Both the position numbers and the translations under genes were made by a program. DNA of 21,026 nucleotides, from IMG/VR virus record IMGVR_UViG_3300031673_005814, positions 1 to 21,026 of that record; one strand, 5' to 3'. The notes beneath the pieces were generated by a model. It searched no databases and was not told the origin of the DNA. It saw nothing but the letters and a program-made list of their open reading frames with translations. This document shows positions 3,620 to 20,151 of the stretch, in pieces. The first letter of the stretch is position 1. Each line of letters opens with the position of its first letter. This stretch comes from a virus.

Positions 3620-3631
3620 TATAACTCCCTA

Positions 3632-4778: not shown

Positions 4779-4779
4779 A

Positions 4780-5463: not shown

Positions 5464-5473
5464 TCAAATCCCC

Positions 5474-6145: not shown

Positions 6146-6160
6146 AAAATTTCCCCTTTG

Positions 6161-6745
6161 TTATTCTGTTAATGTTTTCGTTATGCCTTGAAGATTCAGG
6201 CCAACTGACACATCGGGAGCCCCTGCCCTTTTCTCAAATATAATTTCAATTAAATCGCCAATATCAAAGGGCCTTGTTGGAAACCAAATGAAATTGGCCG
6301 TTGGGTTAGCGGGCCCCGTCCTAACATCGGCTATAACCACGCTATTCTTAAGAACCTGAAAATTTGACTCGAAGCGACAACTGACAGTCAATCTTCCGAG
6401 TTCTATCGTATCAGGAAAAGCCACGTTGTAGCTAAATAAAGTATGAGGTCCTGCGCCAACAGGAACGTCGAAATAGTCAAAAAAAAAGTTTGTGGCCGCC
6501 GTAGAATTTCCCGGAAACCAACCTTTGATAATATCAATAGCGTTAGACAAATTAGTTATGTCATTTCCGCCGTCATTCAAAGTTAATTCATTGTTTGAAA
6601 GTGCGCGGATAACATCACTTGAAGCTGCGAATGTTGGATAGTCCTGCGGCGGAATTGCATAGCTTGAGTTTGCGCTAACCGATACGCCCGCGTCGAATAT
6701 TTCAACCGAGTTTATAGGGTTATCATTTCGTAAAATTTTACTCAT
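6161..6745 (-). CDS. Putative virion structural protein, unknown (194 aa)
   Basis: This 194-aa protein starts at an ATG overlapping the stop of the upstream gene (ATGA), so it is coupled to it. The N-terminal third is polar with an NNELTLNDGGNDITNLSN stretch. The C-terminal part has alternating hydrophobic strands (DTIELGRLTVSCRFESNFQVL, then LIEIIFEKR) with Pro/Gly turns, typical of a beta-sandwich. There is no membrane segment or catalytic motif. Position within the structural run suggests a neck, tail or decoration component. No family is recognised. Confidence 0.65.
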   Translation of the reverse strand: MSKILRNDNPINSVEIFDAGVSVSANSSYAIPPQDYPTFAASSDVIRALSNNELTLNDGGNDITNLSNAIDIIKGWFPGNSTAATNFFFDYFDVPVGAGPHTLFSYNVAFPDTIELGRLTVSCRFESNFQVLKNSVVIADVRTGPANPTANFIWFPTRPFDIGDLIEIIFEKRAGAPDVSVGLNLQGITKTLTE

Positions 6746-7488
6746 ACGTCAGACCCTTTTAGCACAAGTGCCGCCCCCAAATTTCTAGTGTTGCCCGTTA
6801 TGAGCCGCATCGCAAGCTGCACGTTGACCGAAGTATATTGAATGGGTACGTCTACCAATATTCTTTTGTCGCCCCCGCTTAGTATCGGGACCTGAGTCAA
6901 CTCAGTTAAATTTATACCGTTTCCCTCATGTTGATAAATTCCAAGCGTATAGTTCGCCTCTAGCTCGGTCCCAACTGCAACTTGAATAATTCTACCGTTT
7001 CCAAATAATACGGGAACACCCACAACATTGCTCGGCATTCCATTGCCCCAAGTTAACCAAAAACCCGCAGATTTGTCGTTAATGGCCATATAAACAAAAC
7101 CCGGACTAGCCGGACCTACAATGTCCCCGGGAGCAACAAAAGGAAGCCCCTTCGCAGATAGTTTGTTCTTAATTTGATCTTTAAGTTTTCCCGCTAAGAA
7201 CCTAATCCGTACTGGACCCGAAGCGTTGATATACATATTTTCAGTGTCGAAATCTTTGTACTTAAAATAAAAATTATAGTCCCCTGTTACCGCCAAGGGG
7301 ATAATATCGGCGGGAATAAACGTGAGCCCATGCCGAACTTTGAAACTATCCGCTTCCTTGGGAATAGTTACATCATATAGCTGAAAGTCGCCCTCAAACC
7401 ATATTTGACGGTTGATGAACTGACTAAGCCTAAAAAAGTTTTCCCGAACATACGGGTCCTCAATATCCTTGAGGATAAGATCAATCAC
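6742..7488 (-). CDS. Putative virion protein, two beta-rich halves, unknown (248 aa)
   Basis: This 248-aa protein starts at GTG 7488-7486, preceded by GGGGG with four bases between. The N-terminal 25 residues look like a helix (DPYVRENFFRLSQFINRQIWF). Residues about 33-100 are a beta domain with the pattern 'FKVRHGLTFIPADIIPL', which resembles small domains seen in podovirus tail-associated proteins. Residues about 150-245 form a second beta domain. It is the first gene after the capsid gene, where head-completion or decoration proteins often lie. I cannot assign it to a known connector family. Confidence 0.65.
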   Translation of the reverse strand: MIDLILKDIEDPYVRENFFRLSQFINRQIWFEGDFQLYDVTIPKEADSFKVRHGLTFIPADIIPLAVTGDYNFYFKYKDFDTENMYINASGPVRIRFLAGKLKDQIKNKLSAKGLPFVAPGDIVGPASPGFVYMAINDKSAGFWLTWGNGMPSNVVGVPVLFGNGRIIQVAVGTELEANYTLGIYQHEGNGINLTELTQVPILSGGDKRILVDVPIQYTSVNVQLAMRLITGNTRNLGAALVLKGSDV

Positions 7489-7506
7489 TTAACCCCCAAC
7501 TATTTT

Positions 7507-7530
7507 GAGACGGTGCTTTCACACCGCCCC
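7507..7530 (-). promoter_or_regulatory. Hairpin between capsid gene and downstream virion genes
   Basis: In the 61-base gap after the capsid stop, the minus-strand transcript can fold a stem of up to 9 pairs (GGGGCGGTG with CACCGTCTC, two of them G-U) around a 6-base loop. No U-run follows, so it is not a typical terminator. It could partly terminate transcription, or stabilise the upstream capsid mRNA 3' end, which would favour high capsid dosage. Function is inferred. Confidence 0.45.
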
Positions 7531-7549
7531 AAGTATTGCCGTTCTAAAC

Positions 7550-8794
7550 TTAGTAGTTAGGAATATTCGTTAAAATCGCGTTTTTCCAGGGGGCAGTTAG
7601 GACTAAATCGCCGTAAAGGCAATGGTCCAAAATGTAGAAATACCCAGTAGTTTCGCGTACTTCGTAATATTCTTTCCCGTCCGGGGCCTTGCGCCGCTTA
7701 AATAGGCCGTTCGAGTAGAATTTCACACTACTCCAATCCAAGTACAGAATATGACTATCGTCAGCTTCCTGGATACCCACAAGGGTAATGGTCTGTCCCG
7801 AAACGCTACCGATTTCAATAGTGTCCCAACCATATACGCCAACTTTGCGTGAGTTTGGTACAACATTGAATGGGCCCTTTTGAGATTCAAGCAACTTCAA
7901 GCAAGAACCGAAGTGTTTGAAACTCATTAGGACTTCCGGTGCTTTCCCGCCTTTTGCAAGCTTCATGCGCTGTACATACCCGTCGAAGATTTTTTCGAGG
8001 ATATTCGACGCTGAAATCGTGCTGCCGTCCAGATTCGGGCACTGTAAAAATTGGTGATCTGTTTTAGCCTGGCCAAACAAATTTGCAGTTCCGCCGTTTG
8101 CTAGTGACAACATTTGACTTGGAAGCGAAGTCATCGCACCTGTTAATGCTCCCGGGTGATAAACCTTGGTCGCAGCGGCTAACGAGTAGGCCGAAATATC
8201 AGCGGCACCGCCGCCTCGAGTTGCGGATACTGTGATCGACTCGTCATACACACTCACGTCTATGACGTAATATGTAGCCGCCGCCGTATCGTTATCTTGC
8301 AACACGATCTTTTGGTCCTTGTTGTATCGGTCAATACGCGCTACGGGTAATACCCCGCCAACTGTACCGTTTCCAACCGCTCTATCAAAGTGCGGCCCAC
8401 CCAATAAATGGGTAGAAACAACCATTTTGTAGTACATCATCATGGATTCTATTTGATCTGGCAGAATCTTGAGGAATGTACTCTCGGGGATTCGACCGTC
8501 GTGTTCCATAAGATCACGGTGGGCGAATGAAAGTGAACTCCAAGTTTCCGGTTGTACCGAAATGGAACCCCTTACGTATTTGTGTTGACTTATGTCTGAT
8601 TGTGCGGCTAGCTGCCCAAACTCAATAGACGTAGCAATCTGGCCAGTAAATGGGATAATTAATTCCCCACCCTTCCAAGATTCTATATGGTCTACTTTTT
8701 GCATGAGATAGTCACGCTTGATAAATTCTTGTTTTAACAGGTCTAAAGGCAAATACTGATTTAGCATAGCCTGGAACGAACGATTTGTGCTCAT
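7550..8794 (-). CDS. Major capsid protein, probably HK97-fold
   Basis: This 414-aa protein directly follows the scaffold-like gene in the canonical terminase-portal-scaffold-capsid order. The ATG has AGGGAG at a suitable distance. The N-terminal part contains a basic/acidic helix-rich region (LNQYLPLDLLKQEFIKRDYLM). Residues about 40-95 fit the extended-loop region of HK97-fold coats. Residues about 148-215 are an Ala/Gly/Thr/Val-rich beta insert, which could be an I-domain-like insertion as in P22 coat. The C-terminal part (MSFKHFGSCLKLLES, then ILYLDWSSVKFYSNG) has the helix and strand pattern of the spine and axial domains. The call rests mainly on gene order and length. There is no N-terminal maturation-protease site or protease gene nearby, consistent with a separate scaffold. 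Confidence 0.85.
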   Translation of the reverse strand: MSTNRSFQAMLNQYLPLDLLKQEFIKRDYLMQKVDHIESWKGGELIIPFTGQIATSIEFGQLAAQSDISQHKYVRGSISVQPETWSSLSFAHRDLMEHDGRIPESTFLKILPDQIESMMMYYKMVVSTHLLGGPHFDRAVGNGTVGGVLPVARIDRYNKDQKIVLQDNDTAAATYYVIDVSVYDESITVSATRGGGAADISAYSLAAATKVYHPGALTGAMTSLPSQMLSLANGGTANLFGQAKTDHQFLQCPNLDGSTISASNILEKIFDGYVQRMKLAKGGKAPEVLMSFKHFGSCLKLLESQKGPFNVVPNSRKVGVYGWDTIEIGSVSGQTITLVGIQEADDSHILYLDWSSVKFYSNGLFKRRKAPDGKEYYEVRETTGYFYILDHCLYGDLVLTAPWKNAILTNIPNY

Positions 8795-8824
8795 TTTGAA
8801 ACTCCCTAGTTAATTAACGAAAAC

Positions 8825-9823
8825 CTATGCACCAAGGTCTTTGGCCATTTGTTTAAGGTCCTCGATTGATGTTGGCGACTTCTTTATGGGGGAAGTCCCT
8901 CGCCCCTGTACCGCAGGAATCACGGGTTTATTCTGAACTTGCGGTCCAGGCGTAGAAACATGGGGTGCTTGTGGCATTCCCGCTTGCGACGGAATCCCCC
9001 CGGTTTCAACCATTTTCCCGTATTTTGTCAGGACCCTTTGCGCGGCTTGTTCCGCAGAAATGTCCTGTTTATCGACGTACCAAGCCCTTTGCGCTTCCTC
9101 GACAATTTGTCTGCGGAATGCGCCAAGTTCGCCCGCTCTAGAATCCCACGCGCTTGCGACTTGTGAGACTTCGGGTCGATTCAATACCATTTCTAGCTGC
9201 ATAGTCCGGGCCTGGACCGCTTGGTGTTGGTATTGTTCTTGGAGTTCATTTTTTTCTAATTGTAAATCATACACCCGCTGCCGCTCTAAAGCTTGCGACT
9301 CTAAAGCGTGTTTCTGCGCGGGCGGAAGATTGTCCATTTCAATTTTTTGTTCAACCCAATCGTAGACCTTGGCGGCGTCTAAGTTTATCGCCTTGAAGAA
9401 ATTGTCTAGGTCCCCGTTGTTCAAAAATGAAGTCACGCGCCTAACGTCTCGGTCAAGGGCGGTATATTCATTGTAGACTTCGGTGAATTCTTGCTGGGTC
9501 CCCTCATGCCGAGTTTTTAAGTCGTCAAAGGCGTAGGCTTTTGTGAATACATCATTCACTTTCTTTTCGGATTCTGGGTCCTTAATTAAGGGCCGCCAAA
9601 ATTCCTCAACCTCATGCTCTTTTCCAAAAGCTTTGAATTTGAAGTTTGGTTTGTATTCGGGCGTAACAACTTCGGGCTTTGTACTACCCTCTAAATCTTC
9701 CGACGTAGTGTCGTCAGATATACTTTCCGGTGTTGTTGCTGTTTCTGTTTCTACACTTTGAGTTAAGCTTGCGGCGTTAACTCCCGTTGTGTCTACGGGT
9801 TCCGATGAATTGCTTGTCATCAT
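8825..9823 (-). CDS. Scaffolding protein
   Basis: This 332-aa protein lies between portal and capsid, the usual place for a scaffold. Residues 1-55 are acidic and rich in Ser, Thr and Glu. Residues about 60-110 contain KFKAFGKEHEVEEFWRPLIK, and residues about 110-260 are Gln/Glu/Leu-rich and predicted helical, as in scaffolds. The final residues (SIEDLKQMAKDLGA) form a small amphipathic helix like the capsid-binding tail of P22-type scaffolds. It is low in Cys and aromatics. The start overlaps the portal stop. Two adjacent ATG codons are available; the first is used here because GGGGG lies nine bases away. During assembly it would guide coat polymerisation and then leave the shell. Confidence 0.8.
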   Translation of the reverse strand: MMTSNSSEPVDTTGVNAASLTQSVETETATTPESISDDTTSEDLEGSTKPEVVTPEYKPNFKFKAFGKEHEVEEFWRPLIKDPESEKKVNDVFTKAYAFDDLKTRHEGTQQEFTEVYNEYTALDRDVRRVTSFLNNGDLDNFFKAINLDAAKVYDWVEQKIEMDNLPPAQKHALESQALERQRVYDLQLEKNELQEQYQHQAVQARTMQLEMVLNRPEVSQVASAWDSRAGELGAFRRQIVEEAQRAWYVDKQDISAEQAAQRVLTKYGKMVETGGIPSQAGMPQAPHVSTPGPQVQNKPVIPAVQGRGTSPIKKSPTSIEDLKQMAKDLGA

Positions 9824-11940
9824 TGCAGTAGTCCCCCTTGAACTTGTTGCCCCTCACCCATTCCTTGAGATTGTTGTGGTTGTTGTTTTTCCATAAGCTT
9901 CCTTGCGATTTCAGACTGTACTTGTTGCGTTTGCAATGCAAGTTGTTCTTGTGAACTTCCTTGCTCCGAAAGCCGCTTAACTAACCAATTCAAGGCTTCC
10001 GCCGGAACCGTTGCTCTAATTGAGCGGTTAGGTTGGTTCGGGTCAGGTATGTAGTAGTCGCATTTTATACTCGCCCCGGACGCCGGAATGAATTCATTCT
10101 GCGCTTGCTTAATAGCCTCAAGCCTATCCGCTCCCATTTTCTCGTAAATTTGAATAAGTTGGTCGTACCGTTGTTGAATCTCGGGCGCAAGCAACCTGTA
10201 GTCCGATTGCTTTTGCCTAGCCGCCAAACGCTTCAAAATATACTCGCCATTATCATTTTTTGAAATATGGGGTTCCTCATTTCGATCTAAAGCTAATTGG
10301 ATATTAACGGCAGCGTCGTAGTCCAAAGTTAGGTCATCGAACGCCGATTCGGAATTAGCAAACGGCATTTGCCGAATCATCTTCCCAATCGAATCCTTGT
10401 CTAAGTTAGTCCCCACATATTGCAAAATTTGATTCAAAACTAAATGACGACCCATCATTGAAGTGGTGTCCTCAGTCATTGGCTCAACTTTTATTTGAAA
10501 CTGTAATGGCTCGGTATTCTTAAACTCACTTATATTTATGTATTCAGATTTCCCAATAGCAGGGACTAGCATTTCCTCGTCAAAGTATTCCTTGGCAAGT
10601 TGTAGATAAACCGTGCAAAGAGATACTAGGAAGTTTTCAAATTTTTCGGCGTATATCGCAAATTTCTTCTTGTCCCTGACTGAGCGGTATAAATTGGCAA
10701 AAGCGTCCCCGCCTTCCTTTTCCGCCGCGTCCTCGGGAATATTTGCAACTTGATACATTTCCGCAATCTGTGAATTCACATATTCTAGGAACTGATTTCC
10801 GGCCCTACCTTCAAGGATTGTTGGCGTTTGTCCGGTCACGAACATCGTGCGAATCCCGGGCAAATTCGGGCCGTTTGTAACCTTGGCCCCGTTTTGTAAA
10901 ATAACCTTATCGTCCCCTAAAGTGACTTGGTGTTCGGCAATTTTTGACCCCGCTCTATTCACCTCGTATTGATACGGCCTTAATTGCTTAATAATGGACC
11001 GATGCCGGGGAGTAGTTTGAATCTCGTCAAATCCCTCATAGCATATAGGAAACACACCAAAAGGAAGGGGCCCTTCCGCTAGTTTCGTTTCCCCAGTTTG
11101 AATTACAAACCAACCGTCAGGATAGTCATACGAAGGCCGAAAAAACCACTCTTTCACTAAAGCTTGGTTTTCAGACTTTGAATAATTACCCTTGGCCCCG
11201 TCGAAAACAAAAAATGTTTCGTCCTGGGTAGATTGGATTTTTTTCTTCTTTTCCTCGTCGTCCCCGACTAAGGCTTTTAGGTCATTTATGTGAACCATTT
11301 TCCGGGAACAAAGCCATCTTGCTTCCTGCATGGTCTTGGCTTCCGCCGGGCGTATTAGGTTGAATCCGAGGATTCTTTCAAATACTAGGTCGCCCGTGAA
11401 TACCGCTTTCCCGTTAGACTTCGGTTGCCCGGCCTCGTCGAATACAGGTTGCCCGTCCTCACCAATTTCTTGTTCGTATCCCCTGAATCGTCCGGCCAAA
11501 GGGTCCCAAAATACCTTTGCAGCGCATTCCCCGATTTCTATGAAATCCTTGCACCAAGAATGCGTTTTCATGCGTAAATGTTGCGCGGTCTTAGCGTACT
11601 CCCAAACGGATTTGTTTAGCTGGGCAGATTTTTGGTCAGCTAACTCTTTGGGGTTATTCGGCGTAGGAACAACTCCCGGGGATTGTGACATTATGTTGTT
11701 TTCGTAGGTCCGCGTAATTTTGTGTATATGATTTTTTGTGAGCCTTAACTTTTGGTCATTGTAAATCTCTTTAGATTCCCGAAGCCTGTTATGCCATTTC
11801 GAGTTTTTCCTTGAATAATGGTCGCCCGAGGCCAACAAACAGTTAGACCTTTGCTCGGCGTACAGGTCGCTATCGGCGGATTCCCCGTCCAAAAACATTC
11901 TGTTTAGCTCATCAATCGAGGGTGATTTCGTTTCTTCCAC
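9820..11940 (-). CDS. Portal protein, P22-like
   Basis: This 706-aa protein is close in length to P22 gp1 (about 725 aa) and lies directly after the terminase pair and one small gene. Residues 23-52 (DSDLYAEQRSNCLLASGDHYSRKNSKWHN) fit the P22-type portal N-terminus. The core QLRPYQYEVNRAGSKIAEH (319-337), leading to DDKVILQNGAKV, matches the conserved stem region of that family. The C-terminal 60 residues are Gln-rich and helical (IARKLMEKQQPQQSQGMGEGQQ), like the coiled barrel of P22 portals. The start is GTG with GAGGA three bases upstream, overlapping the previous gene by 29 bases. It forms the dodecameric DNA entry ring at one capsid vertex and is the docking site of terminase. Confidence 0.9.
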   Translation of the reverse strand: MEETKSPSIDELNRMFLDGESADSDLYAEQRSNCLLASGDHYSRKNSKWHNRLRESKEIYNDQKLRLTKNHIHKITRTYENNIMSQSPGVVPTPNNPKELADQKSAQLNKSVWEYAKTAQHLRMKTHSWCKDFIEIGECAAKVFWDPLAGRFRGYEQEIGEDGQPVFDEAGQPKSNGKAVFTGDLVFERILGFNLIRPAEAKTMQEARWLCSRKMVHINDLKALVGDDEEKKKKIQSTQDETFFVFDGAKGNYSKSENQALVKEWFFRPSYDYPDGWFVIQTGETKLAEGPLPFGVFPICYEGFDEIQTTPRHRSIIKQLRPYQYEVNRAGSKIAEHQVTLGDDKVILQNGAKVTNGPNLPGIRTMFVTGQTPTILEGRAGNQFLEYVNSQIAEMYQVANIPEDAAEKEGGDAFANLYRSVRDKKKFAIYAEKFENFLVSLCTVYLQLAKEYFDEEMLVPAIGKSEYINISEFKNTEPLQFQIKVEPMTEDTTSMMGRHLVLNQILQYVGTNLDKDSIGKMIRQMPFANSESAFDDLTLDYDAAVNIQLALDRNEEPHISKNDNGEYILKRLAARQKQSDYRLLAPEIQQRYDQLIQIYEKMGADRLEAIKQAQNEFIPASGASIKCDYYIPDPNQPNRSIRATVPAEALNWLVKRLSEQGSSQEQLALQTQQVQSEIARKLMEKQQPQQSQGMGEGQQVQGGLLQ

Positions 11941-12232
11941 GGTCCTCTAATTCCCGTTCAATGACGAGTTGTTCATAAAGACTTGGGTCGTCTATTTGTA
12001 AAAGATCAAGACGGTCCTCGGCCTCAGTGAGATTCTCACTTATGTTAACTTCCTGTTCGGCTTCCTTAAGTTCTTGGTCAGTCATAAGATCGACTTCACT
12101 CGGTCTTATTTTTGTCTGTACGGTTTCACCCGCGACAAACTTAACTTCGATGTTTCCAATCTTCAATTCGGAAACTCTAGCCTGGTTGCAAGCCCTTAGA
12201 ACGCGAATTAAATCTTTCGCGTCAAAAGTCAT
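11912..12232 (-). CDS. Small acidic protein between terminase and portal (106 aa)
   Basis: The start is taken at ATG 12232-12230, nine bases after GGAG, overlapping the terminase stop by 11 bases. A GTG five codons upstream is possible but has no better ribosome site. The first 45 residues (DLIRVLRACNQARVSELKIGNIEVKF) look like a small helix plus beta-hairpin fold. The C-terminal half is very acidic and helical (DQELKEAEQEV, then EDRLDLLQIDD). No family is recognised. It sits between the packaging motor and its docking ring and overlaps both neighbours, which suggests an assembly or packaging accessory. This is inferred from position. Confidence 0.75.
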   Translation of the reverse strand: MTFDAKDLIRVLRACNQARVSELKIGNIEVKFVAGETVQTKIRPSEVDLMTDQELKEAEQEVNISENLTEAEDRLDLLQIDDPSLYEQLVIERELEDRGRNEITLD

Positions 12233-13781
12233 TATTAGATGCTCCACTTAAATCATTCCAAAAGTCAAATTCTTCCTGCATATCATCGGTAGGTTTGGAC
12301 CCGCCCATAAACCACTCTCGCCTTTTCTGGCCGTCGGTCAACTCGACTTTCGGCTTTCTTTCTTCCCTCAACTCACCCGGAATATTTACATCAATTTCTT
12401 CCTCGGGGAAACTCCAAGGAATAGCTTGAACAACATATCTAAGTGCGTCAACAAGGTCGTCTTGTGTTGCGCTAGACTTCTTGTCCGCATCAACCGCAAG
12501 TGTCGCAATCTCGTAAACAAGCTTGTCTAACTCGGGGTCGTCTCTTTGAATTTTTAATTTACCGCGCTTGAATAATGTATTCAATAAACCAAACCCGGCG
12601 TCACGCCCCTTATCTGCGGGAATGAATCTTTCACCTTGCCTACTCGCAACTAAATAAAAATCCTTAGCGGCCCAGTCGTAGACTTCCCCGGTCATCGTTA
12701 GCCCGGCTTTCAATCTTCGGTATTCATCTAATATGTCACTCGCTGCCGTAGGTATCCCGTCCATACGTCTTGCGCGTGTAACTCTACCCTCGGTGAAATC
12801 TGGGTTCACACTAACCACAACCATACCCGCCGGGTGCCCACTCTGACCGCCCGTTCCGGGGTCAACACTTCCCCAGTGACTCCATGTTTTCGGCGTCGGG
12901 TGATTTTCACTCCGATTTCTTTCATGGTCGAAAGATTCTATTCGCAAACCCGACGACCGGACGAAGCGACCCATCACGCGCCGCTCAATTTCCTGGGGAG
13001 TAGGACAGTTTGCAATAGCGGCGTTGATCTTCTTTTGGTCCCACATACTCGGGGTGCCGTCCTCGTAATGCTGGGAATCATATAGACTAGCGGAAATCTT
13101 CAAAGCGTCCTTGTGACGTTCATCTTCCTTGGTCGGCGGTTCCATTGTCATTTGCCAATGCAGTTGTCCCAAGGTCGCGGTAAAGACCATGAGGAACGCC
13201 CCATCTACCGCGTTTCGCCTGGCAGACAATTCGGGTAAGTATTCCTGGGGAAGTTCTTCGTCACAAGTAATATGGTAGACCGAGGCGGCCTGTAAATCCC
13301 GTATCTTCATAGAATAGCTGCGAAATTGAATTTGAATCCCTGTATTAAACCGAATTTTACTAATATTACCCTTTTCGTACACCGCTTCCCAACCAAACTG
13401 AGGGTGATTCTTAAATTCGCCCTTTGGCATGAGCGGAAGCCATGAAGTTTCCCATTGCGTATTTGCAAGCGGTAAAGTTGGGTAAAAATACCAAAATAAG
13501 TTCGGGGCCTTGCCCTTTGCTAGATTCGGCCAGAATTTTGGCCACAAAGTCGGCTCAGTACAAAGCCTTATGTTCTTTCTAATGGCCACGGTCGATTTTC
13601 CAACCTGATTGGCACTACAAACAAAGATTTCCCGGTTTGTTGAATCCCAAACCTTCCGCTGCCATGGATAAAACTTGTAACTAAACAAATGCGGAAGCCC
13701 ATCGTGAAACTTTTGAAGTTCCTCGAGTTCTTTGAGTTCCTGGACCTTTTTATTGTATTCTTCCTTAGACCATTCACTCAT
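12222..13781 (-). CDS. terL: Terminase large subunit (DNA-packaging ATPase and nuclease)
   Basis: This is a 519-aa protein. The ATPase Walker A loop is CSANQVGKST (residues 55-64). Walker B is VYHITCDEE (168-176) with D174 and E175 as the likely acidic pair. The C-terminal RNase-H-like nuclease shows SVDPG (D307), YDWAAKD (D369, D374) and QDDLVDAL (D441, D442, D445), the expected metal-binding acidic residues. Length and domain order are complete. The ATG overlaps the end of the upstream putative small subunit by 8 bases with no clear ribosome site, so translation is probably coupled. The enzyme cuts concatemeric DNA and pumps it through the portal. The P22-like portal suggests headful packaging, which is inference. 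Confidence 0.95.
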   Translation of the reverse strand: MSEWSKEEYNKKVQELKELEELQKFHDGLPHLFSYKFYPWQRKVWDSTNREIFVCSANQVGKSTVAIRKNIRLCTEPTLWPKFWPNLAKGKAPNLFWYFYPTLPLANTQWETSWLPLMPKGEFKNHPQFGWEAVYEKGNISKIRFNTGIQIQFRSYSMKIRDLQAASVYHITCDEELPQEYLPELSARRNAVDGAFLMVFTATLGQLHWQMTMEPPTKEDERHKDALKISASLYDSQHYEDGTPSMWDQKKINAAIANCPTPQEIERRVMGRFVRSSGLRIESFDHERNRSENHPTPKTWSHWGSVDPGTGGQSGHPAGMVVVSVNPDFTEGRVTRARRMDGIPTAASDILDEYRRLKAGLTMTGEVYDWAAKDFYLVASRQGERFIPADKGRDAGFGLLNTLFKRGKLKIQRDDPELDKLVYEIATLAVDADKKSSATQDDLVDALRYVVQAIPWSFPEEEIDVNIPGELREERKPKVELTDGQKRREWFMGGSKPTDDMQEEFDFWNDLSGASNNDF

Positions 13782-14406
13782 CTTGTGGTGTCACGTCTTT
13801 CAATGGTTGAAGTTTGGCCCGAATCTCTTTCAACTTGGCCTCAATCTCACGGGGGTCCGTCGGAGTTTCCATTTTCCCGCCCTGGACCTCAACATTTAGG
13901 TTCCTAGATTCAATTTTATGGACCATTGGACCTAAGTGCCTATCAGCAAAATACTGAAACGCCTTTAGAAGTATCGGGGCGGTCTTTTCCGTCACGGGCA
14001 TCGACAAAATGTCGTCCCGGACCCTTTGAAACGAATATCTGTAGGCTTCCTCGATTAAAGCCTCGGTGTCTATAGTCGGAGTAAATAACCAAGCAACCCG
14101 GGGCGAGTTTTTAAGTAGTTGATTGTAGAAATAAGAGTTGGAACAAACCCCACCATATACGTCCGTCCCTTTGAGTTTATAGAACCCCGTCGCCTCGGCC
14201 TCATAGAATAAAGTCCATAGATTTTTCTTCATGGCGTAGTCCAGGGGAGTAGGGTTAAACAGTCTAGCAAGTTCGGTTTCGTCCTTGATCTGCAATTCCT
14301 CGGGAATACTCGCTAGAGCCTTCCCAATCCCAGAATCCTCATTAAAACAGGCGACCAAGCGGTCCCGTTTCGTTTGTACTTCCATTTCCCCGGCAGTTTC
14401 ACCCAC
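13774..14406 (-). CDS. Putative terminase small subunit
   Basis: The start is placed at GTG 14406-14404, eight bases after a GGGGG site, giving 210 aa. A TTG five codons upstream and an ATG seven codons downstream are alternatives. It is the first gene of the packaging operon and overlaps terL by 8 bases, the standard position of the DNA-recognition subunit. The body is helical (LARLFNPTPLDYAMKKNLWTLFYEAEATG, then AYRYSFQRVRDDILSM). The C-terminal tail (EIEAKLKEIRAKLQPLKDV) is a predicted coiled coil, as in oligomeric small terminases. I do not see a textbook N-terminal helix-turn-helix, so the assignment rests on position and size. Confidence 0.6.
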   Translation of the reverse strand: MGETAGEMEVQTKRDRLVACFNEDSGIGKALASIPEELQIKDETELARLFNPTPLDYAMKKNLWTLFYEAEATGFYKLKGTDVYGGVCSNSYFYNQLLKNSPRVAWLFTPTIDTEALIEEAYRYSFQRVRDDILSMPVTEKTAPILLKAFQYFADRHLGPMVHKIESRNLNVEVQGGKMETPTDPREIEAKLKEIRAKLQPLKDVTPQDE

Positions 14407-14428
14407 TAATATATCCCCCAATTACAAT

Positions 14429-14457
14429 ATTCTACGAGTAACCTCGTAGCATTGCAA
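14429..14457 (-). promoter_or_regulatory. Candidate sigma70-type promoter of the late (terminase to fibre) operon
   Basis: Read on the minus strand, TTGCAA (14457-14452; 4 of 6 to consensus) is followed after exactly 17 bases by TAGAAT (14434-14429; 5 of 6). The predicted start would fall within about 20 bases of the putative small-terminase start. It is the only recognised promoter candidate upstream of a 14-kb run of coupled genes. The TTGCAA box is itself palindromic, so it could also serve the opposite strand, where no good -10 box follows. Confidence 0.5.
14432..14449. promoter_or_regulatory. Perfect 7+7 inverted repeat lying mainly in the late-promoter spacer (operator or hairpin)
   Basis: CTACGAG-TAAC-CTCGTAG is a perfect palindrome with a 4-base centre, flanked further out by CAAT (14425-14428) and ATTG (14451-14454). 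It covers most of the 17-base spacer of the minus-strand promoter candidate and its left end overlaps three bases of the -10 box. That is the geometry of a repressor operator. The small helix-turn-helix gene starts about 155 bases away and is an obvious candidate ligand, which is inference. Confidence 0.55.
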
Positions 14458-14504
14458 TTCACCCAGACCTATGCCATACAGTCAAGAACTAAAGGGGAAT
14501 TTTT

Positions 14505-14603
14505 ATGAATCTAGATTGGTCGCAAATTCTTATTGGCCTAGCAATCCTGGCCTTGGCAATTACCTGGACTTGGGTTTGCCGAACTTTACCGCTAGATTGG
14601 TAG
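14505..14603 (+). CDS. 32-aa single-pass membrane peptide
   Basis: ATG is preceded by GGGG with seven bases between, and the frame ends at TAG 14601-14603. Residues 7-25 (QILIGLAILALAITWTWVC) form one clear hydrophobic span. The N-terminus carries Asp4 and the C-terminus Arg26 and Asp31. It is the first gene of a plus-strand group of four, with the next gene starting one base after its stop. Phage peptides this size can be holin-like, regulators of lysis or membrane-protein modulators; the sequence does not choose between them. Confidence 0.6.
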   Translation: MNLDWSQILIGLAILALAITWTWVCRTLPLDW

Positions 14604-14604
14604 G

Positions 14605-14766
14605 GTGATATGTCCAAACTGCAAATCATCAATCGGCAAGGCATCGGCGGCGCAAACCAAGGCCACGGCCCGTTATCTCTTAAAGCGCGGCTATTCTTGC
14701 CGAGGAATTTCCCGCCTCATAGGCGTATCCGCCACAACCGTATCACGCTGGAACACCAAGAAATAG
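14605..14766 (+). CDS. 53-aa helix-turn-helix DNA-binding protein with N-terminal CPNC
   Basis: The frame starts at GTG, one base after the stop of the membrane peptide, so reinitiation is likely. Residues 3-6 are CPNC, half of a zinc-knuckle or zinc-ribbon. Residues 29-49 match a classic helix-turn-helix (GISRLIGVSATTVSRW at 34-49), with Gly at the turn and the 'TVSRW' recognition helix typical of Hin- and transposase-like domains. The protein is strongly basic. A second frame (ATG 14610 to TGA 14783) runs through the same DNA but has no recognisable pattern. It could regulate the adjacent divergent promoters or the late operon. No ribosome site is strong here, so the GTG start is tentative. 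Confidence 0.65.
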   Translation: MICPNCKSSIGKASAAQTKATARYLLKRGYSCRGISRLIGVSATTVSRWNTKK

Positions 14767-14779
14767 GCGACGACTCCCC

Positions 14780-14980
14780 ATGAGTGACGAACACGAAATG
14801 AAAAAATTTACCGCAAAGTTCAATGAACTTCTTAATATTAAAACCGCATATCAACTAGGCCTCATAGGTCACGATGAATATATCCGAAGGGCCAGGGAAA
14901 TAAATAGCGACGAACCCGAGTGTATCTGTCATGAAATAAACTCGCGCCATTGTCCCGTTCATAACGTGAGGGAAGAATGA
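14780..14980 (+). CDS. 66-aa protein with C-terminal Cys/His cluster
   Basis: The first 45 residues form two predicted helices (KKFTAKFNELLNIKTAYQLG, then DEYIRRAREIN). The C-terminal part, ECICHEINSRHCPVH, holds C48, C50, H51, C58 and H61. This resembles small metal-binding tails of the 'CxC...CPxH' kind seen in phage orphan proteins. There is no obvious ribosome site before ATG, so it may depend on translation of the upstream gene, 13 bases away. The next gene overlaps its stop (ATGA). Function unknown; a zinc-stabilised regulatory protein is plausible. Confidence 0.65.
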   Translation: MSDEHEMKKFTAKFNELLNIKTAYQLGLIGHDEYIRRAREINSDEPECICHEINSRHCPVHNVREE

Positions 14981-15177
14981 GCCAACACAATCTAGCTAAC
15001 TTCCTGCGACTTGTTGTGTTCCTAATTATCGTCGGGCTTTGCTTCACGCTTGCAGTTGCCCTACTAACCTCATGCACACACCCCGAAGTAAATAAATGCA
15101 CATACATTTGCCCAACTAAGAACCCGCCCGTCGGGTGCTATTGCCTGGAAGATGAAAGCGAAACTAAACGTCCATGA
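14977..15177 (+). CDS. 66-aa putative lipoprotein, Cys-rich
   Basis: Residues 12-31 form a hydrophobic export segment that ends in a lipobox, LTSC, with C33 as the lipidation site. The mature part is only about 33 residues and contains four more Cys in the pattern CTYICPTKNPPVGCYC, then an acidic and basic tail. It overlaps the previous stop (ATGA) with AGGG upstream. Small phage lipoproteins act as outer spanin components or as superinfection-exclusion proteins. No inner spanin partner is visible beside it, so a lysis role is not shown. Its last 14 bases overlap the 3' end of the opposing recombinase gene. Confidence 0.65.
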   Translation: MSQHNLANFLRLVVFLIIVGLCFTLAVALLTSCTHPEVNKCTYICPTKNPPVGCYCLEDESETKRP

Positions 15178-15685
15178 TTTCCCGCAAGTGTTCCTGCGAA
15201 TAAACAAAATCAACATAGATCATTGTATTCCTTAAATCCTTGTGACCAAGAATCATTTGAACCGCCTTCACGTCCTTTGTCCTTTTGTATAGCCGAATCG
15301 CACACGTATGCCGCAAACAATGAAACGTCTTTAACTTCTTATCAAGCGCGTGTTTCCTCGGAGCAAAATCCTGAAACACTTGATATAACCGCTGATATGA
15401 GATTGGAAATAACTTTTCGGTGGGAAGATTTTGAAGGCTCGAAAATAATTCAGGTCTGAGGGGAATATCGCGGTCAAATGAGCCCTTTAATCCATACACC
15501 CTAACAGATTTTGTCTTGGTCATCAAATCTTTCTTCCTGATATTTAAGATTTCTTGCGCCCGTGCCCCGGTAGCTAAAGCCAACTGAATCATGATCTTGT
15601 CTCGAGTGATTGGCGCAAACTTTATAGTATTAACTAAAGCCTCATACTCATCGTCGTCTAAACACTTATCGAAAGTTAGTTTCAT
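15164..15685 (-). CDS. int: Tyrosine recombinase, catalytic domain only
   Basis: This is a 173-aa protein. All active-site residues of the family are present in order: R42 in GARAQEIL, K67 in LKGS, H122 and R125 in FHCLRH, H148 in LGH, and the nucleophile Y157 in MIYVDF. The N-terminal SAM-like arm- and core-binding domain found in most integrases (300-400 aa) is missing, so the length is close to the short FimB/FimE type of about 200 aa. The start has GAGGGG eight bases upstream. Possible roles are integration, resolution of genome multimers or inversion of a segment. No pair of att-like repeats was identified nearby. It is the last gene of a four-gene minus-strand group. Confidence 0.9.
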   Translation of the reverse strand: MKLTFDKCLDDDEYEALVNTIKFAPITRDKIMIQLALATGARAQEILNIRKKDLMTKTKSVRVYGLKGSFDRDIPLRPELFSSLQNLPTEKLFPISYQRLYQVFQDFAPRKHALDKKLKTFHCLRHTCAIRLYKRTKDVKAVQMILGHKDLRNTMIYVDFVYSQEHLREIMDV

Positions 15686-15686
15686 T

Positions 15687-15944
15687 TTATGTCCCCTCTA
15701 GGTAGTCCACGGCGTCCCAGGATTCCGTTGTGAAAATAAAGTTTTCGGCTTCCTTCAAAGAATCAAACGTCGCAAGGTATTGATAAATACGCCCGTTGGC
15801 CCTAGTCGCTTGAAGGTTAAACTCCCCGTCATTTTCTGTGACTCTAAACTTGTTTCGCAAATTCAAAACAGTAAATTTACTGACAACACTATAAAACTTT
15901 TTGTCTTGCTCTGTGACTTTCTCGTAATGAATTAAGTCGCTCAT
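15687..15944 (-). CDS. Unknown protein (85 aa)
   Basis: This 85-aa soluble protein has no recognised family. The middle (TVLNLRNKFRVTENDGEFNLQATRANGRIYQYLATF) alternates strand and turn, followed by a helix (DSLKEAENFIFTTESW), an alpha/beta pattern common in small phage proteins. ATG overlaps the upstream stop and has GGGAG upstream. Its stop lies one base before the recombinase start, so the two are probably co-transcribed and perhaps co-regulated. Confidence 0.7.
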   Translation of the reverse strand: MSDLIHYEKVTEQDKKFYSVVSKFTVLNLRNKFRVTENDGEFNLQATRANGRIYQYLATFDSLKEAENFIFTTESWDAVDYLEGT

Positions 15945-16138
15945 ACAACTCCCGTCTCATCAATTATTTCAAATCCTAAACGCTTGCGTTCTTTCTCAAG
16001 CGACTTAATAAAAGCTTTCTTGCGCTTCACAGAGATTGCAAAGCAATCATAAGGCTCAGAGTTTTCCCAGAAATCAACCATGTAGAAGTTCTCGGAACAA
16101 GTTTTTCTAATCCTGAAAAATGATAGGGGGAGTTTCAT
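15941..16138 (-). CDS. Unknown basic protein (65 aa)
   Basis: This 65-aa protein has an N-terminal strand-rich part with several aromatics (ENFYMVDFWENSEPYDCF) and a strongly basic helix (KRKKAFIKSLEKERKRLGFE). The ATG overlaps the upstream stop (ATGA), showing coupling. The basic helix could contact nucleic acid, but no DNA-binding fold is visible. Its neighbours are small unknown genes upstream of the recombinase. Confidence 0.65.
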   Translation of the reverse strand: MKLPLSFFRIRKTCSENFYMVDFWENSEPYDCFAISVKRKKAFIKSLEKERKRLGFEIIDETGVV

Positions 16139-16399: not shown

Positions 16400-16428
16400 A
16401 TAGTAAACTAGAACTTTGCGCTATGCAA
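16400..16428 (-). promoter_or_regulatory. Weak promoter candidate for the recombinase gene group
   Basis: On the minus strand, TTGCAT (16428-16423) and TACTAT (16405-16400) are separated by 17 bases, about 30 bases before the first gene of the group. Matches are only 3 of 6 and 4 of 6, so this is tentative. It is the best-spaced pair seen in the otherwise gene-free left part of this region. Confidence 0.3.
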
Positions 16429-16535
16429 TACGGCGCGTCATAATAGTACATTCTTTGAATTTTTTATATGGCGGGCGCGTAGATATTAAATCTAAACTCA
16501 CCGCGACCCCCCCACCCCCCATCTTTGAAAAAATC

Positions 16536-16554
16536 GAATTTCCCCAGGAAATTC
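16536..16554. repeat. 8+8 bp perfect palindrome
   Basis: GAATTTCC-CCA-GGAAATTC is a perfect inverted repeat with a 3-base centre. It sits five bases before a second, 6+6 repeat (AAATTG-GGA-CAATTT, 16559-16573) with a similar AT-rich core. The pair looks like two protein-binding sites in tandem. Confidence 0.7.
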
Positions 16555-16584
16555 AGGAAAATTGGGACAATTTCCCAGGGAATA

Positions 16585-16628
16585 CTTGAATCAGGGGGCC
16601 ATTGGCCATTGGTTCCCCTGAATTCAAG
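16585..16628. repeat. Long imperfect hairpin (13/14-bp arms)
   Basis: The left arm 16585-16597 and right arm 16615-16628 pair along their whole length with a single-base bulge. The loop region contains GGCCATTGGCC, which can itself fold. On either strand the stem would be very stable. No U-run follows. Confidence 0.75.
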
Positions 16629-16650
16629 GGTTTGGCCCTTAAGGTTTCAC

Positions 16651-16792
16651 GCATAATATTAAGTCGGGCCCCTGAATCCAAGGCGCGGGCCCGTTTCCCC
16701 GGGAATACTTGGCGGCCTTGGCCAAGGGCCAAGGGCCATGGCGGGAACCGCTAGACGTTCGGGCCTGAAAAATAAATCACTTAATATTATGC
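16651..16792. repeat. 14-bp perfect inverted repeat with 114-bp spacer
   Basis: GCATAATATTAAGT (16651-16664) and its exact reverse complement (16779-16792) flank a GC-rich segment full of GGCC. Each half contains the palindrome AATATT. It could be a pair of binding sites for a looping regulator or part of an origin. Confidence 0.85.
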
Positions 16793-16849
16793 CGAACCCT
16801 TAAGTTTTGTTCGGGACGTTCCGAATAAGAAGTATCAACCAATTCAGTG

Positions 16850-16886
16850 CCAAGTCGAGGCCTTGTATCGACGGGGGAAATTATGA
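16850..16886 (+). promoter_or_regulatory. Leader hairpin, copy 1 (DUF932 gene)
   Basis: This is a 37-base leader ending in the start codon. GTCGA (16854-16858) pairs with TCGAC (16868-16872) around the loop GGCCTTGTA, directly followed by GGGGG (ribosome site) and ATG at 16883. It matches copy 2 at 34 of 37 positions, and the closing pair differs in a compensating way (A-T here, G-C in copy 2). An alternative pairing of CAAG with CTTG in the loop would be mutually exclusive with the main stem. Confidence 0.7.
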
Positions 16887-17833
16887 GTCACGAAGTCGAA
16901 AATATGTTTTCAGTCAAGGAAACGCCTTGGCACGGCCTTGGCCAAGTTATACAAAACGCGCCAAGTATTGAGGAAATTCTAAAATTGGCGGGCCTTGACT
17001 GGACTGTTTCAAAACGTCCGTTGTACTTGGCCGACGGAACGGAAGTCTCGAACAATGCCTTGGTTCGGGATTCAGACAATAGCGTTTTAGGGTACGCCGG
17101 GAAACGATACAAACCACTACAAAACGCCGAGGCCTTGGAATTTTTCAAACCATTTCACGATTCGGGTTTGTGCAACTTCCAAACCGCCGGAAGTCTCAGA
17201 ATGGGACAGAAAATCTGGATTTTAGCGGCCCTGAATCAACCGGAAATGGAAATCGTCAAGGGGGACGTTGTTCGGAAATATTTAATGCTAAGTAACGGAC
17301 ACGACGGAATCACGGGAATTCGAGTTGGATTCACGCCAATTCGAGTTGTTTGTGCCAATACGTTGGCAATGGCGCACAATTCCGCCGATTCAAAACTGAT
17401 TCGAGTATTCCACTCAAGTCAAACAGTACAAAACTTGGATTTATTGAGGGATTCAATCAATGCCGCCAATTCAAGTTTTGAGGCAACCGCCGAACAATAC
17501 CGGGCCATGGCCAAAACTGGCATTAATGCCGGGGACGTTGAAAAATACGTTGACCTAGTATTCTACAACGGAAAATCAGCACAAACCGACCGGGAAATCT
17601 TGGCGCGTGAAAAATTGACAGCGGAAATCAATCAACTGTTTGTAGCGGGCCATGGTCAAGACGTTCAAGGCGTTCGGGGAACCATGTGGGGCCTCTACAA
17701 TGGCGTGACTCAATACTTAAGTTACAATCAGGGCCGAACCCAAGATACACGAATGGATTCCCTTTGGTTCGGGGACAACCGCGTTGTGAATCAACGGGCC
17801 TTTGATTCCGCCATGAGTTTTGTTGCGGCATAA
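16883..17833 (+). CDS. DUF932 phage/plasmid-like protein (TIGR03299 type)
   Basis: The start is set at ATG 16883 (316 aa) because it has GGGGG five bases upstream. The longer frame from 16847 has no such site and would run through the leader hairpin. The N-terminus MSHEVENMFSVKETPWHGLG and then LKLAGLDWTVSKRPLY match the opening of the DUF932 family, followed by LGYAGKRYKPLQNAEALEFF (residues about 70-90) and GIRVGFTPIRVVCANT (about 155-170), also typical. The family is widespread in phages and plasmids. Its biochemical role is not settled and it is sometimes linked to anti-defence or replication contexts. It is the first gene of the GGCC-rich plus-strand module. Confidence 0.9.
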   Translation: MSHEVENMFSVKETPWHGLGQVIQNAPSIEEILKLAGLDWTVSKRPLYLADGTEVSNNALVRDSDNSVLGYAGKRYKPLQNAEALEFFKPFHDSGLCNFQTAGSLRMGQKIWILAALNQPEMEIVKGDVVRKYLMLSNGHDGITGIRVGFTPIRVVCANTLAMAHNSADSKLIRVFHSSQTVQNLDLLRDSINAANSSFEATAEQYRAMAKTGINAGDVEKYVDLVFYNGKSAQTDREILAREKLTAEINQLFVAGHGQDVQGVRGTMWGLYNGVTQYLSYNQGRTQDTRMDSLWFGDNRVVNQRAFDSAMSFVAA

Positions 17834-17844
17834 TTAAATCAAAA

Positions 17845-17866
17845 CCCGGGGAAATTGTTCCCCGGG
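17845..17866 (+). promoter_or_regulatory. Perfect 9-bp hairpin after the DUF932 gene
   Basis: CCCGGGGAA-ATTG-TTCCCCGGG begins 11 bases after the DUF932 stop. It is a very stable stem with a tetraloop but no U-run (AAACTT follows). It may act as an mRNA-stabilising or processing element between two genes that carry the same leader, or as a partial terminator. Confidence 0.7.
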
Positions 17867-17877
17867 AAACTTAAGGG

Positions 17878-17914
17878 CCAAGTCGGGGCCTTGTTCCGAC
17901 GGGGGAAATTATGA
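17878..17914 (+). promoter_or_regulatory. Leader hairpin, copy 2 (107-aa gene)
   Basis: This is the second copy of the 37-base leader, ending in the ATG at 17911. GTCGG (17882-17886) pairs with CCGAC (17896-17900) around the loop GGCCTTGTT, followed directly by GGGGG. The spacing to the ribosome site and start codon is identical to copy 1. Only three bases differ, two of them forming the compensated base pair. Confidence 0.7.
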
Positions 17915-18234
17915 ATTCACTTAAAACAATAAAACCAAAACCGAAAAAAATGCTACTGAATCATGAGTTTTGTAAAATTATAGAGGAAAATGGAAAATTC
18001 ACGTTGTACCTGAAAATGGCCAATGGCCAATTTGCGGTTCAAAACCCGTACCCGGCGGATTTAAGGGGGGCCATTGGCGCGTTGACCTTGGCCCTTGACG
18101 TATTGGCCGGGAAAATTCAACTCGGGGCCGTTGTGGACTTGAATGAAAATTCAATCAATCAGGAATCAACCGGGGAAATTATTGAGGCCTTGGCCCTTAA
18201 GGCGTTCCAAGATGACGACGGGGGGATTCAATGA
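17911..18234 (+). CDS. Unknown protein (107 aa)
   Basis: This 107-aa protein begins with a basic Lys-rich tail (LKTIKPKPKK). A short strand-rich part follows (CKIIEENGKFTLYLKMANGQFAV), then a helix (LRGAIGALTLALDVLAGKI) and an acidic C-terminus (AFQDDDGG). The helix has no clear membrane-anchor length. It shares its leader hairpin with the DUF932 gene and overlaps the next gene (ATGA), so it links the two. Not recognised. Confidence 0.75.
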   Translation: MNSLKTIKPKPKKMLLNHEFCKIIEENGKFTLYLKMANGQFAVQNPYPADLRGAIGALTLALDVLAGKIQLGAVVDLNENSINQESTGEIIEALALKAFQDDDGGIQ

Positions 18235-18833
18235 GTACCCGATCAATCATAATTATAACAGGAAACGGAAAATACAACGGCCCGGAAACGACTCGACTCT
18301 ATAAGCATTCCGACGGATACCCAACGGACGTTTTGAACCTGATTCAACGGGCCATGGCCAAGTCTCAAGGCCAATGCGTTGACGATGCGGCCCGATTCAA
18401 GGAACGGGAAATCAAACCCGTCAACGTCGATCAACTTGTGGGGAATATTATTGGGGAATCGACTTCAATTTACGGCCAAGGGGCCCGAGTTGAGGCCGAA
18501 TTCCCCGAGGAATTCACGGCCAAACATCTTGGAAATCAGGGGGACCTTGAATGGATTTATATTATTCAACTCGAGACCAAAACCCTTGGAATTTTCGGCG
18601 GGGGATACACTGGCAAAACGCCACAAACCGCGTTGAAAAATGGCCCCGTGAATCCTGAAAAATATGCGTTGAACCTGTACCCGGAATATCAGGCCGGGAC
18701 GATTGAGGAAACGAGGAAATTGGTTCAATCAATTCAAGGCCTTGGATTTTCAGTCAATGCCAATCAACCAAAACCAAAACCAAAACCAAAACCAAGGGGG
18801 AAACGTGAAAAAATCAAAACCAAAACGGCATAA
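18231..18833 (+). CDS. Conserved phage protein of the 'LYKHxDGYP' type
   Basis: This is a 200-aa protein. The N-terminus MSTRSIIIITG and LYKHSDGYPTDVLNLI (residues about 22-37) match a recurrent but uncharacterised phage and plasmid family that begins with a beta strand and a 'DGYP' turn. The middle contains IYGQGARVEAEFPEEF and LEWIYIIQLETKTLGIFGGG. Residues 179-200 are a Pro-Lys dipeptide run (PKPKPKPKPRGK) encoded by a hexanucleotide repeat, followed by a basic tail that may bind nucleic acid or be unstructured. Translation is coupled to the upstream gene (ATGA) and has GGGGGG five bases before ATG. Function unknown. Confidence 0.8.
   Translation: MSTRSIIIITGNGKYNGPETTRLYKHSDGYPTDVLNLIQRAMAKSQGQCVDDAARFKEREIKPVNVDQLVGNIIGESTSIYGQGARVEAEFPEEFTAKHLGNQGDLEWIYIIQLETKTLGIFGGGYTGKTPQTALKNGPVNPEKYALNLYPEYQAGTIEETRKLVQSIQGLGFSVNANQPKPKPKPKPRGKREKIKTKTA
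18767..18796 (+). repeat. Hexanucleotide tandem repeat (ACCAAA-type, five units)
   Basis: There are four exact ACCAAA units plus ACCAAG in a row. It encodes the (PK)n tract of the 200-aa protein. Because the unit is 6 bp, slippage changes the protein by two residues without a frameshift. The next gene starts nine bases after the last unit. Confidence 0.95.
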
Positions 18834-19146
18834 TGGCCAAGTCCGTTGGATTGACCAATTCGGCGGCCAAGGCGTGATTCGAGTCGGTGCAACGGGGGAA
18901 TCAATCCCGTTTTACATTTGCAACTTGTTGGGGGCCAAAACTTGGTTCAATGAGACTTGTTGCATGACGATTGAACAAGGGGCCCCGGTTGAATTCGAGT
19001 TTCACGAAGCCTTGGGGGCCGTGAAAATTTCGGGGGGAACGCTTGACCTTGAACATTGGAACCGAATCAAAGGTCAAGACTTGGCTTTCACTTGTGATTC
19101 CGACGGGAACGCCACAAGTGGATTGTTCAAAGGGGGGGCCAAGTGA
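18805..19146 (+). CDS. Small cold-shock-domain-like protein (113 aa)
   Basis: The start is GTG 18805 because AGGGGG lies just upstream; the frame is open further 5' but only as a shadow of the previous gene, which it overlaps by 29 bases. Residues 10-24 (NGQVRWIDQFGGQGV) and the following strand IRVGATGESIPFYICNL fit the layout of a cold-shock domain: 'G-x-V-K-W-F', then a GFI-like strand, then a 'VFVH'-like strand. A later EFEF..LGAVKI strand closes the barrel. The aromatic RNA-binding residues are only partly kept. A basic tail (KKSKPKRH) precedes the domain. An RNA- or ssDNA-binding role is inferred. Confidence 0.55.
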   Translation: MKKSKPKRHNGQVRWIDQFGGQGVIRVGATGESIPFYICNLLGAKTWFNETCCMTIEQGAPVEFEFHEALGAVKISGGTLDLEHWNRIKGQDLAFTCDSDGNATSGLFKGGAK

Positions 19147-19358
19147 AAATCATAATTATGACCATTGTCTTGGCCATTGGCGGTTGCGGTTTGGCCCCAC
19201 AACGGGCCGAACCCGACCGGGTTCCGACGGAATCAGACCGGGGACTTGAATATTGCCGGGCCGAACCCGACGGGGCCCGGGTTTGCGTTATTTGCCGAAC
19301 GTACCCGATTTTCAGACTTGACGGGACGATTTCCAATTTTCAGGAAATTTGCCGATGA
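19143..19358 (+). CDS. 71-aa putative lipoprotein
   Basis: It starts at GTG overlapping the previous stop (GTGA), with a run of seven G upstream. Residues 1-15 (MKIIIMTIVLAIGGC) form a short signal sequence with lipobox IGGC, so C15 is the probable lipidation site. The mature part is about 56 residues with four Cys (including CVIC) and no recognised domain. In this position it is probably the last gene of the plus-strand module and exported to the cell envelope. Small phage lipoproteins often block superinfection or act in lysis, but that is unproven here. Confidence 0.65.
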   Translation: MKIIIMTIVLAIGGCGLAPQRAEPDRVPTESDRGLEYCRAEPDGARVCVICRTYPIFRLDGTISNFQEICR

Positions 19359-19807
19359 TTCACGCCGAACCAATTCAAACAAACCAATTCAGGGGGCCCG
19401 CCAAGGGCCCCGTTTCCTTGACTCATGGCCAAGGGCCCGGAATCCGAACCCGTTCAATGGCGGGGCCGGGGGGCCCGAAAATGGCCGTTCAAGGAACCCG
19501 ACCGGAATCAATGGCCCGAACCTGTTCAATCAATGGCCCTGAATCCGAACAAAACGGGGCCGCCATGGCGTTGAATCCGGGAACCCGACCGGAATCATGG
19601 CCGAACCCGGCGCGTTCAATGGCGGGGCCGGGGGGCCCGAAAATGGCCGTTCAAGGCCCGGGGGCCGAATCCGGTTCAAGGCCATGGCCAAGTATTGGCG
19701 GGGAATTCAAGGCCATGGCCAAGGGCCATGGCGTCGGGGTTCGGAAAATTCCCGGGGAATTTTTCGACCGCCAAGTGCAAAGCACGGCGGACCCGGCTAT
19801 ATTTAGC
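19359..19807 (+). repeat. Low-complexity, stop-poor GGCC-rich tract with 44-nt direct repeat
   Basis: About 450 bases are built from a small vocabulary of words (GGCC, GAACCCG, GGAATC, TTCAA, CCATGG). An exact 44-base repeat lies at 19451-19494 and 19613-19656, 162 bases apart (54 codons). An 18-base repeat lies at 19493-19510 and 19580-19597, and another at 19675-19692 and 19706-19723. Two or three plus frames stay open for a long way because stop codons are rare, so no frame can be called coding by length. One frame starts with ATG 19355 overlapping the previous stop and ends at TGA 19903 overlapping the next start. It would give a 182-aa Gly/Pro/Met/Ser-rich protein of unknown or no function. 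Confidence 0.7.
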
Positions 19808-19859
19808 GCGTTAGTTGTATGCAATTTCCCACGCATCTTATTCCCTTCCTTCTTTTCAG
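19808..19859 (+). repeat. 52-nt repeat, copy A, with pyrimidine tract
   Basis: Positions 19808-19859 match 20155-20206 at 41 of 52 positions without gaps; 9 of the 11 differences are transitions. ATGC can pair with GCAT in this copy, followed by CTTATTCCCTTCCTTCTTTT, a terminator-like arrangement. It closes the low-complexity tract 41 bases before the next start. Confidence 0.8.
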
Positions 19860-19899
19860 ACCGACTTTTTTCCAAAACTCTAACCGAAAGGATTTCCAA

Positions 19900-20151
19900 A
19901 TGAGAACTTTCAAACTAACCGACCTTTGGTTCAAAACAGTGCAAGGAACCAAACTCAAAGAATTTAATTGGAATGAAATTGCTGAGATACTTATTCAGCA
20001 TGAACTCATAACCCCGGTCGCTTCCCCGGGAAAGGATTGTTTTGACCGTTACAAATTGAATCACGACAAATTAAATTGTGAGCCGAACATGGTTCGTGGT
20101 GTTATACTAGAGGTATTGACGAAATATCTACCTACAGGGGGGAACAAATGA
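19900..20151 (+). CDS. Unknown protein (83 aa)
   Basis: The start is ATG 19900, with AAAGGA upstream; a longer reading frame begins at 19819 but runs through the repeat. The protein is polar, with a mix of helix (NEIAEILIQHELI) and a C-terminal helix (MVRGVILEVLTKYL), two Cys and no membrane segment. Its stop is followed by the second copy of the 52-nt repeat within a few bases, so the gene is bracketed by copies A and B. Not recognised. Confidence 0.75.
   Translation: MRTFKLTDLWFKTVQGTKLKEFNWNEIAEILIQHELITPVASPGKDCFDRYKLNHDKLNCEPNMVRGVILEVLTKYLPTGGNK

Follow-up and report, generated by a model that had tools for sequence, protein, structure and literature searches.

A covarying hairpin ahead of the ribosome-binding sites of differing phage genes: probably a new, portable control element (switch or operator) for protein synthesis

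The window analysed here, a 21,026-nt stretch comprising IMG/VR record IMGVR_UViG_3300031673_005814 from its first position, belongs to a phage in which terminase, portal-like and tail proteins are encoded leftward and a rightward operon opens with a DUF932 gene. Why are this gene and the following one preceded by almost the same leader, and what could it do? As the first-pass annotation had described, the two copies lie exactly at 16849-16885 and 17877-17913, are alike at 34 of 37 bases and end with ATG; the similarity reaches 44 nt at 89% (16843-16886 / 17871-17914), and 0.00 matches are expected for such a pair in shuffled sequence. The stem proposed there is present in both copies as five base pairs closing a 9-nt loop, with its 3′ foot touching GGGGG. 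Its reading of the three differences also held, two of them making a compensated A-T/G-C exchange at the top stem pair and the third falling in the loop. The coordinates are collected in Table 1. No third copy was found in the window, where the next-best score was 15.8 bits, within GGCC-rich sequence. RNA folding of a short stretch agreed with the stem (pair probabilities 0.93-1.0), and the stability of the short leader folds alone was not significant (z = −1.15 and −1.70). These folds are thermodynamically unremarkable; the evidence for the structure is comparative.

Table 1. Positions of the leaders, their parts and the neighbouring features in the window
Feature	Position	Strand	Description
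Upstream intergenic block	16637..16815	+	CTTAAG-type elements; L003 aligns over the GGCCCTTAAGG-TTCACGC block
Leader copy 1, before DUF932	16845..16879	+	Flank AG.GCCAAG, stem GTCGA/TCGAC, loop GGCCTTGTA, then GGGGGAA; 57.1 bits with model R1
Candidate pseudoknot helix	16849..16861	+	GCC 16849-16851 with loop GGC 16859-16861; predicted geometry
Covarying hairpin of copy 1	16854..16872	+	16854-16858 paired with 16868-16872; 9-nt loop 16859-16867
Shine-Dalgarno (SD) GGGGG of DUF932	16873..16877	+	Adjoins the stem directly; other genes of the operon use the same SD style
DUF932 gene	16883..17833	+	316 aa; PF06067 / phrog_1221
Intergenic hairpin	17845..17868	+	CCCGGGGAA/TTCCCCGGG, between DUF932 and leader copy 2; from the fold of 17840-17932
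Leader copy 2, before the 107-aa gene	17873..17907	+	Stem GTCGG/CCGAC, loop GGCCTTGTT, then GGGGGAA; 58.9 bits
107-aa gene	17911..18234	+	Of the viral contigs reached, L003 and L004 alone contain relatives
113-aa protein gene	18805-19146		Called 'cold-shock-like' in the first-pass annotation; no cold-shock match in Pfam

The leader occurred in only one of the 80 viral loci retrieved with the DUF932 protein, the nearest one, L003 (74% identity), where both copies stand at the same two places as in the window. Their stems are GTCGG/CCGAC in copy 1 and GACGG/CCGTC in copy 2; the latter is a transversion in both members of one pair, compensated and independent of the window's A-T/G-C change. Between window and L003 the leaders kept 30/35 and 31/35 bases, and the fourfold sites of the two genes were 41% and 50% identical; both phages also have the same paralogue-specific loop base, A in the DUF932 leaders and T in those of the second gene. 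The locus L004 (72%) carries DUF932 and the 107-aa gene with no leader, and repeats a ACAAAGGA ribosome site instead. A search pattern in which nine of ten stem bases were unspecified found L093 and L096, two records of one phage with the structural gene order of the window and a terminase 75% identical, in which a leader with the stem GTCAA/TTGAC precedes a MoxR-like AAA ATPase gene. Relatives sought by terminase amounted to 13 records, mostly fragments, and none of these had a leader.

The same element was met in phages of other kinds when the SD was removed from the pattern in a viral scan, the pattern in these finds specifying 2/5 stem pairs (6-24 and 8-22). Four records (L137, L145, L147 and L149) fall, by the similarity of their portals, into one P22-like group and L151 has a lambdoid-type terminase, and in all of them the core lies directly before SD and ATG; in L152 it also precedes SD and ATG, the SD being weak. 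L137 and L151 have 33 identical bases through the SD, with surroundings that show no recognisable likeness and with different downstream genes, and at 1e-4 none of L137, L151 and L152 had an ORF in common with the window group, nor with either of the others. When L137 (8575) and L145 (6736) are compared, upstream sequence and leader are the same and the 58-aa ORFs directly behind differ, as if genes could be exchanged behind a leader that stays in place. The SD follows the group (GGGGG in the window group, as elsewhere in that operon, and AAGGAGG in L137 and L151), so that the conserved module is the hairpin with its flank, set against each genome's own kind of SD. Each genome carries one or two copies, and their position against SD and start codon is fixed in all members except L135, whose core is paired but has no SD or start; it was rejected as probably a chance match.

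Contexts with SD and start accounted for 10/11 of the paired pattern hits and 0/10 of the unpaired ones (p = 3e-5), some of these ten contexts being related, so that the effective number is smaller; for the new finds alone, counted by distinct core, the figures were 2/3 and 0/10. In the model searches members scored at least 37 bits and everything else at most 28.6 bits. The exact core pattern had two matches in about 400 Pseudomonadota genomes, with identical cores lacking the full stem; no member was found there, and BLAST of the leader against isolate phages, plasmids and E. coli returned chance pieces only, five of which were inspected and lay in coding, terminator or unannotated DNA.

Covariation was evaluated on five sequences, namely the two copies of the window, the two of L003, which were reached through gene homology with the stem not fixed by a pattern, and that of L093. 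All 25/25 stem cells pair, 3/5 pairs change on both sides and none changes on one side only or is broken, and slid controls gave 16-56% pairing. With L137 and L152 added, there are seven distinct cores, a small set in which pairs 6-24 and 8-22 are pattern-specified for the finds outside the window group; 35/35 stem cells pair, three of the five pairs vary on both sides with none breaking, and the covariation exceeded all 500 shuffles. Kinship alone can lift sequences above shuffles; here, the changes fall in different lineages at different pairs. On this comparison the hairpin structure is well supported, and the compensated changes in relatives (3/5 pairs, none broken) bear out the earlier proposal that pairing rather than primary sequence is under selection; an uncompensated stem break, which would have spoken against it, was found neither among the five sequences nor among the seven cores. 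Over the cores the 5′ flank GCCAA(G), the loop GGCCTNGT (GGCCT.GT) and the contact with the SD are invariant, whereas the SD sequence and the downstream gene are variable.

A CAAG/CTTG pairing exclusive with the stem, as in a switch, had also been suggested; it is possible in both window copies but did not stand in the wider set, pair 8-20 being broken in 3/5 sequences. The invariant GCC of the flank and GGC of the loop could form an H-type pseudoknot whose helices adjoin without a linker and whose first loop consists of two A's. This candidate helix has three pairs and shows no variation in any core, the search patterns having partly fixed these bases, and because of this invariance covariation neither supports nor refutes it. 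When GCC and GGC were occupied in nested-fold models, the results were mixed, with no consistent freeing of the SD. The two C's could also pair with the SD in the models, and a two-state switch built from these pairings would be speculation. Pairing of the loop CCU with the SD was rejected as geometrically doubtful in most members. The loop GGCCTTGTA together with GACGGGGG resembles the two strands of 16S rRNA helix 28; mimicry of 16S rRNA by the leader loop (16859-16867) was set aside as probably due to chance, since the base after CCT is variable.

The element has a size of about 24 nt plus the SD. No family of Rfam 15 matched at gathering score, the best sub-threshold match on the window leader being an unrelated lncRNA (13.8 bits). 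In the literature, as represented by titles and the openings of abstracts, no description of the element was recognised. As it stands ahead of the ribosome-binding site of differing genes in several unrelated phages and has no Rfam match, it probably represents a novel portable operator or switch acting on protein synthesis, and from the sequences it is best described as a new RNA family among small structured translational leaders. Its unusual feature is that one tiny element is common to unrelated phages before unrelated genes.

Several known systems are similar in part. MS2-type coat-protein operators are short hairpins, recognised through their loop and stem, that lie at a ribosome-binding site, and the leader is likewise a short hairpin at such a site, but its loop and stem differ, no coat gene lies downstream and no phage protein is common to the groups. 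The preQ1-I and other small pseudoknot translational riboswitches have about 25-35 nt and a pseudoknot-like layout adjoining the SD, which the leader shares in size and, as a candidate, in layout; unlike them, it gives no sequence or covariance match in Rfam, leaves the SD outside its helix and precedes genes that indicate no metabolic pathway. Similar as well is the operator of T4/RB69 gene 32, a 5′ pseudoknot bound by gp32 (PMC535899), which is also a compact structure in a phage mRNA leader upstream of the start codon, for which the candidate H-type pseudoknot and likely control of initiation predicted here would be counterparts. However, the T4 operator has a pseudoknot of about 28 nt with over 40 nt of UUAAA-rich RNA behind it and serves a single gene (PMC535899), whereas our structure abuts the SD, has no UUAAA-rich tract, is common to unrelated genes and phages, and has no downstream product common to the leader-bearing phages that could serve as the binding repressor. 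In its discovery by covariation in uncultured sequence the leader is similar to the candidate structured RNA motifs from metagenomes (PMC2864571), against which the comparison at sequence level covered those held in Rfam 15, without a match.

Taken on balance, the evidence favours, with some reserve, the view that the twin leaders belong to a so far undescribed family of phage RNAs, short and structured, that act in cis upon translation, a function in translation control that we infer from the sequences. According to this proposal, the hairpin would act on initiation: the invariant flank and loop would make up a recognised shape, possibly an H-type pseudoknot in which GCC pairs with the loop GGC, AA forms a short deep-groove loop and CTNGTA the second loop, and a host factor or small ligand, once bound, would alter how readily the 30S subunit reaches the adjoining SD. 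The two copies in the window would thereby place DUF932 and the next gene under the same control. More tentatively, the element may be a pocket-sized pseudoknot aptamer new to Rfam, a plug-in translation switch carried on exchangeable genes by unrelated phages and either sensing a host metabolite or bound by a host protein; we regard this fuller version as possible rather than probable. If the proposal is true, a very small RNA control element is common to unrelated phages, moves together with its position and not with any one gene, and probably responds to something in the host. It would then give a handle on how phages time the expression of DUF932, a MoxR-like ATPase and small accessory ORFs, and an exceptionally compact system for testing a translational switch.

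The strongest competitor, though an unlikely one in our estimate, is that the hairpin sets the life of the mRNA rather than initiation, either guarding the 5′ end or being cut by a host nuclease of the RNase III or RNase E type. Transcripts are commonly stabilised by a hairpin near the 5′ end; in the window, L003 and L093 the rightward operon has the leader in front of its first gene, and the intergenic hairpin ahead of copy 2 could mark a processing point. A stabiliser, however, would need no invariant 9-nt loop and 5′ flank common to unrelated phages, and the fixed position adjoining the SD, together with the copy before a second, internal gene, fits translation better.

Less probable still is an operator for a phage protein, in which the DUF932, 107-aa or 113-aa protein would bind the hairpins and repress its own operon as T4 gp32 does. 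Twin sites before two genes of one operon with small proteins behind are what such a system would show, and the first-pass annotation had suggested either an autoregulatory leader or the site of a regulator, with the 113-aa protein as candidate. This candidate was not supported, as Pfam showed no cold-shock match for it at E<1 and no homologue of it was present in G001 and G004, two relatives that carry the leader. Of these, G004 (44.9 kb; IMGVR_UViG_3300009085_000007, L105-L107) is apparently complete, since its contig ends correspond to the neighbouring window genes 6161-6745 and 6742-7488, and it has the leader but lacks all three proteins; autoregulation by the DUF932 or 107-aa protein cannot therefore be general, and the best class is still that of a translational operator or regulatory leader, with another partner. 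The same point is made by L137, L151 and L152, which have no protein in common with the window group, and conversely by L004 with its two genes and no leader. No protein common to all leader-bearing phages was found, several of the records being fragments, so that the partner would more likely be a host factor, a metabolite or the ribosome.

Binding as double-stranded DNA, with the inverted repeat as the site of a dimeric regulator or as a mobile repeat, would account for palindromic arms and for the same sequence in unrelated phages, but is very improbable, because DNA operators keep their arms and leave the centre free, whereas in this element both arms vary together and it is the asymmetric centre and 5′ flank that stay constant, at a place tied to the SD rather than to a promoter and in only one or two copies per genome. 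Finally, a recent duplication having no function of its own would be compatible with the two window copies alone, but can hardly be the explanation when the loop bases A and T stayed paralogue-specific in window and L003 despite 41-50% fourfold identity and several independent compensated changes already contradict it.

Some further features of the surrounding DNA were observed. A hairpin 3′ of the DUF932 stop codon is also seen by eye in L003 (about 5966-5985) and L004 (about 5950-5970), with different sequences, and the 3′ arm CCCCGGG of that in the window could, if displaced, base-pair with the following gene's SD. Upstream of the leaders, intergenic blocks are conserved in the window, L003 (4740-4930) and L093 (11500-11660), with CCTTAAGG.TTCACGC...TTAAG and AAAATAAAT...CTTAAGTTTT in common and with CTTAAG elements at similar distances from the leader in window and L093; from their sequences these blocks look like operators or promoters. 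The tetramers GGCC, GGGG and TTCA are 5.75, 4.1 and 3.8 times more frequent than expected in the rightward operon (16400-20150), GGCC is absent from the top tetramers of 1-16000, and composition changes near the intergenic region. The rightward operon also contains direct repeats of 59 nt (88%; 19451-19509/19613-19671) and 48 nt (81%; 19808-19855/20155-20202), and on the minus strand 15164-15685 encodes a 173-aa phage integrase-family protein, of catalytic-domain size only, that is conserved in L108 and L105.
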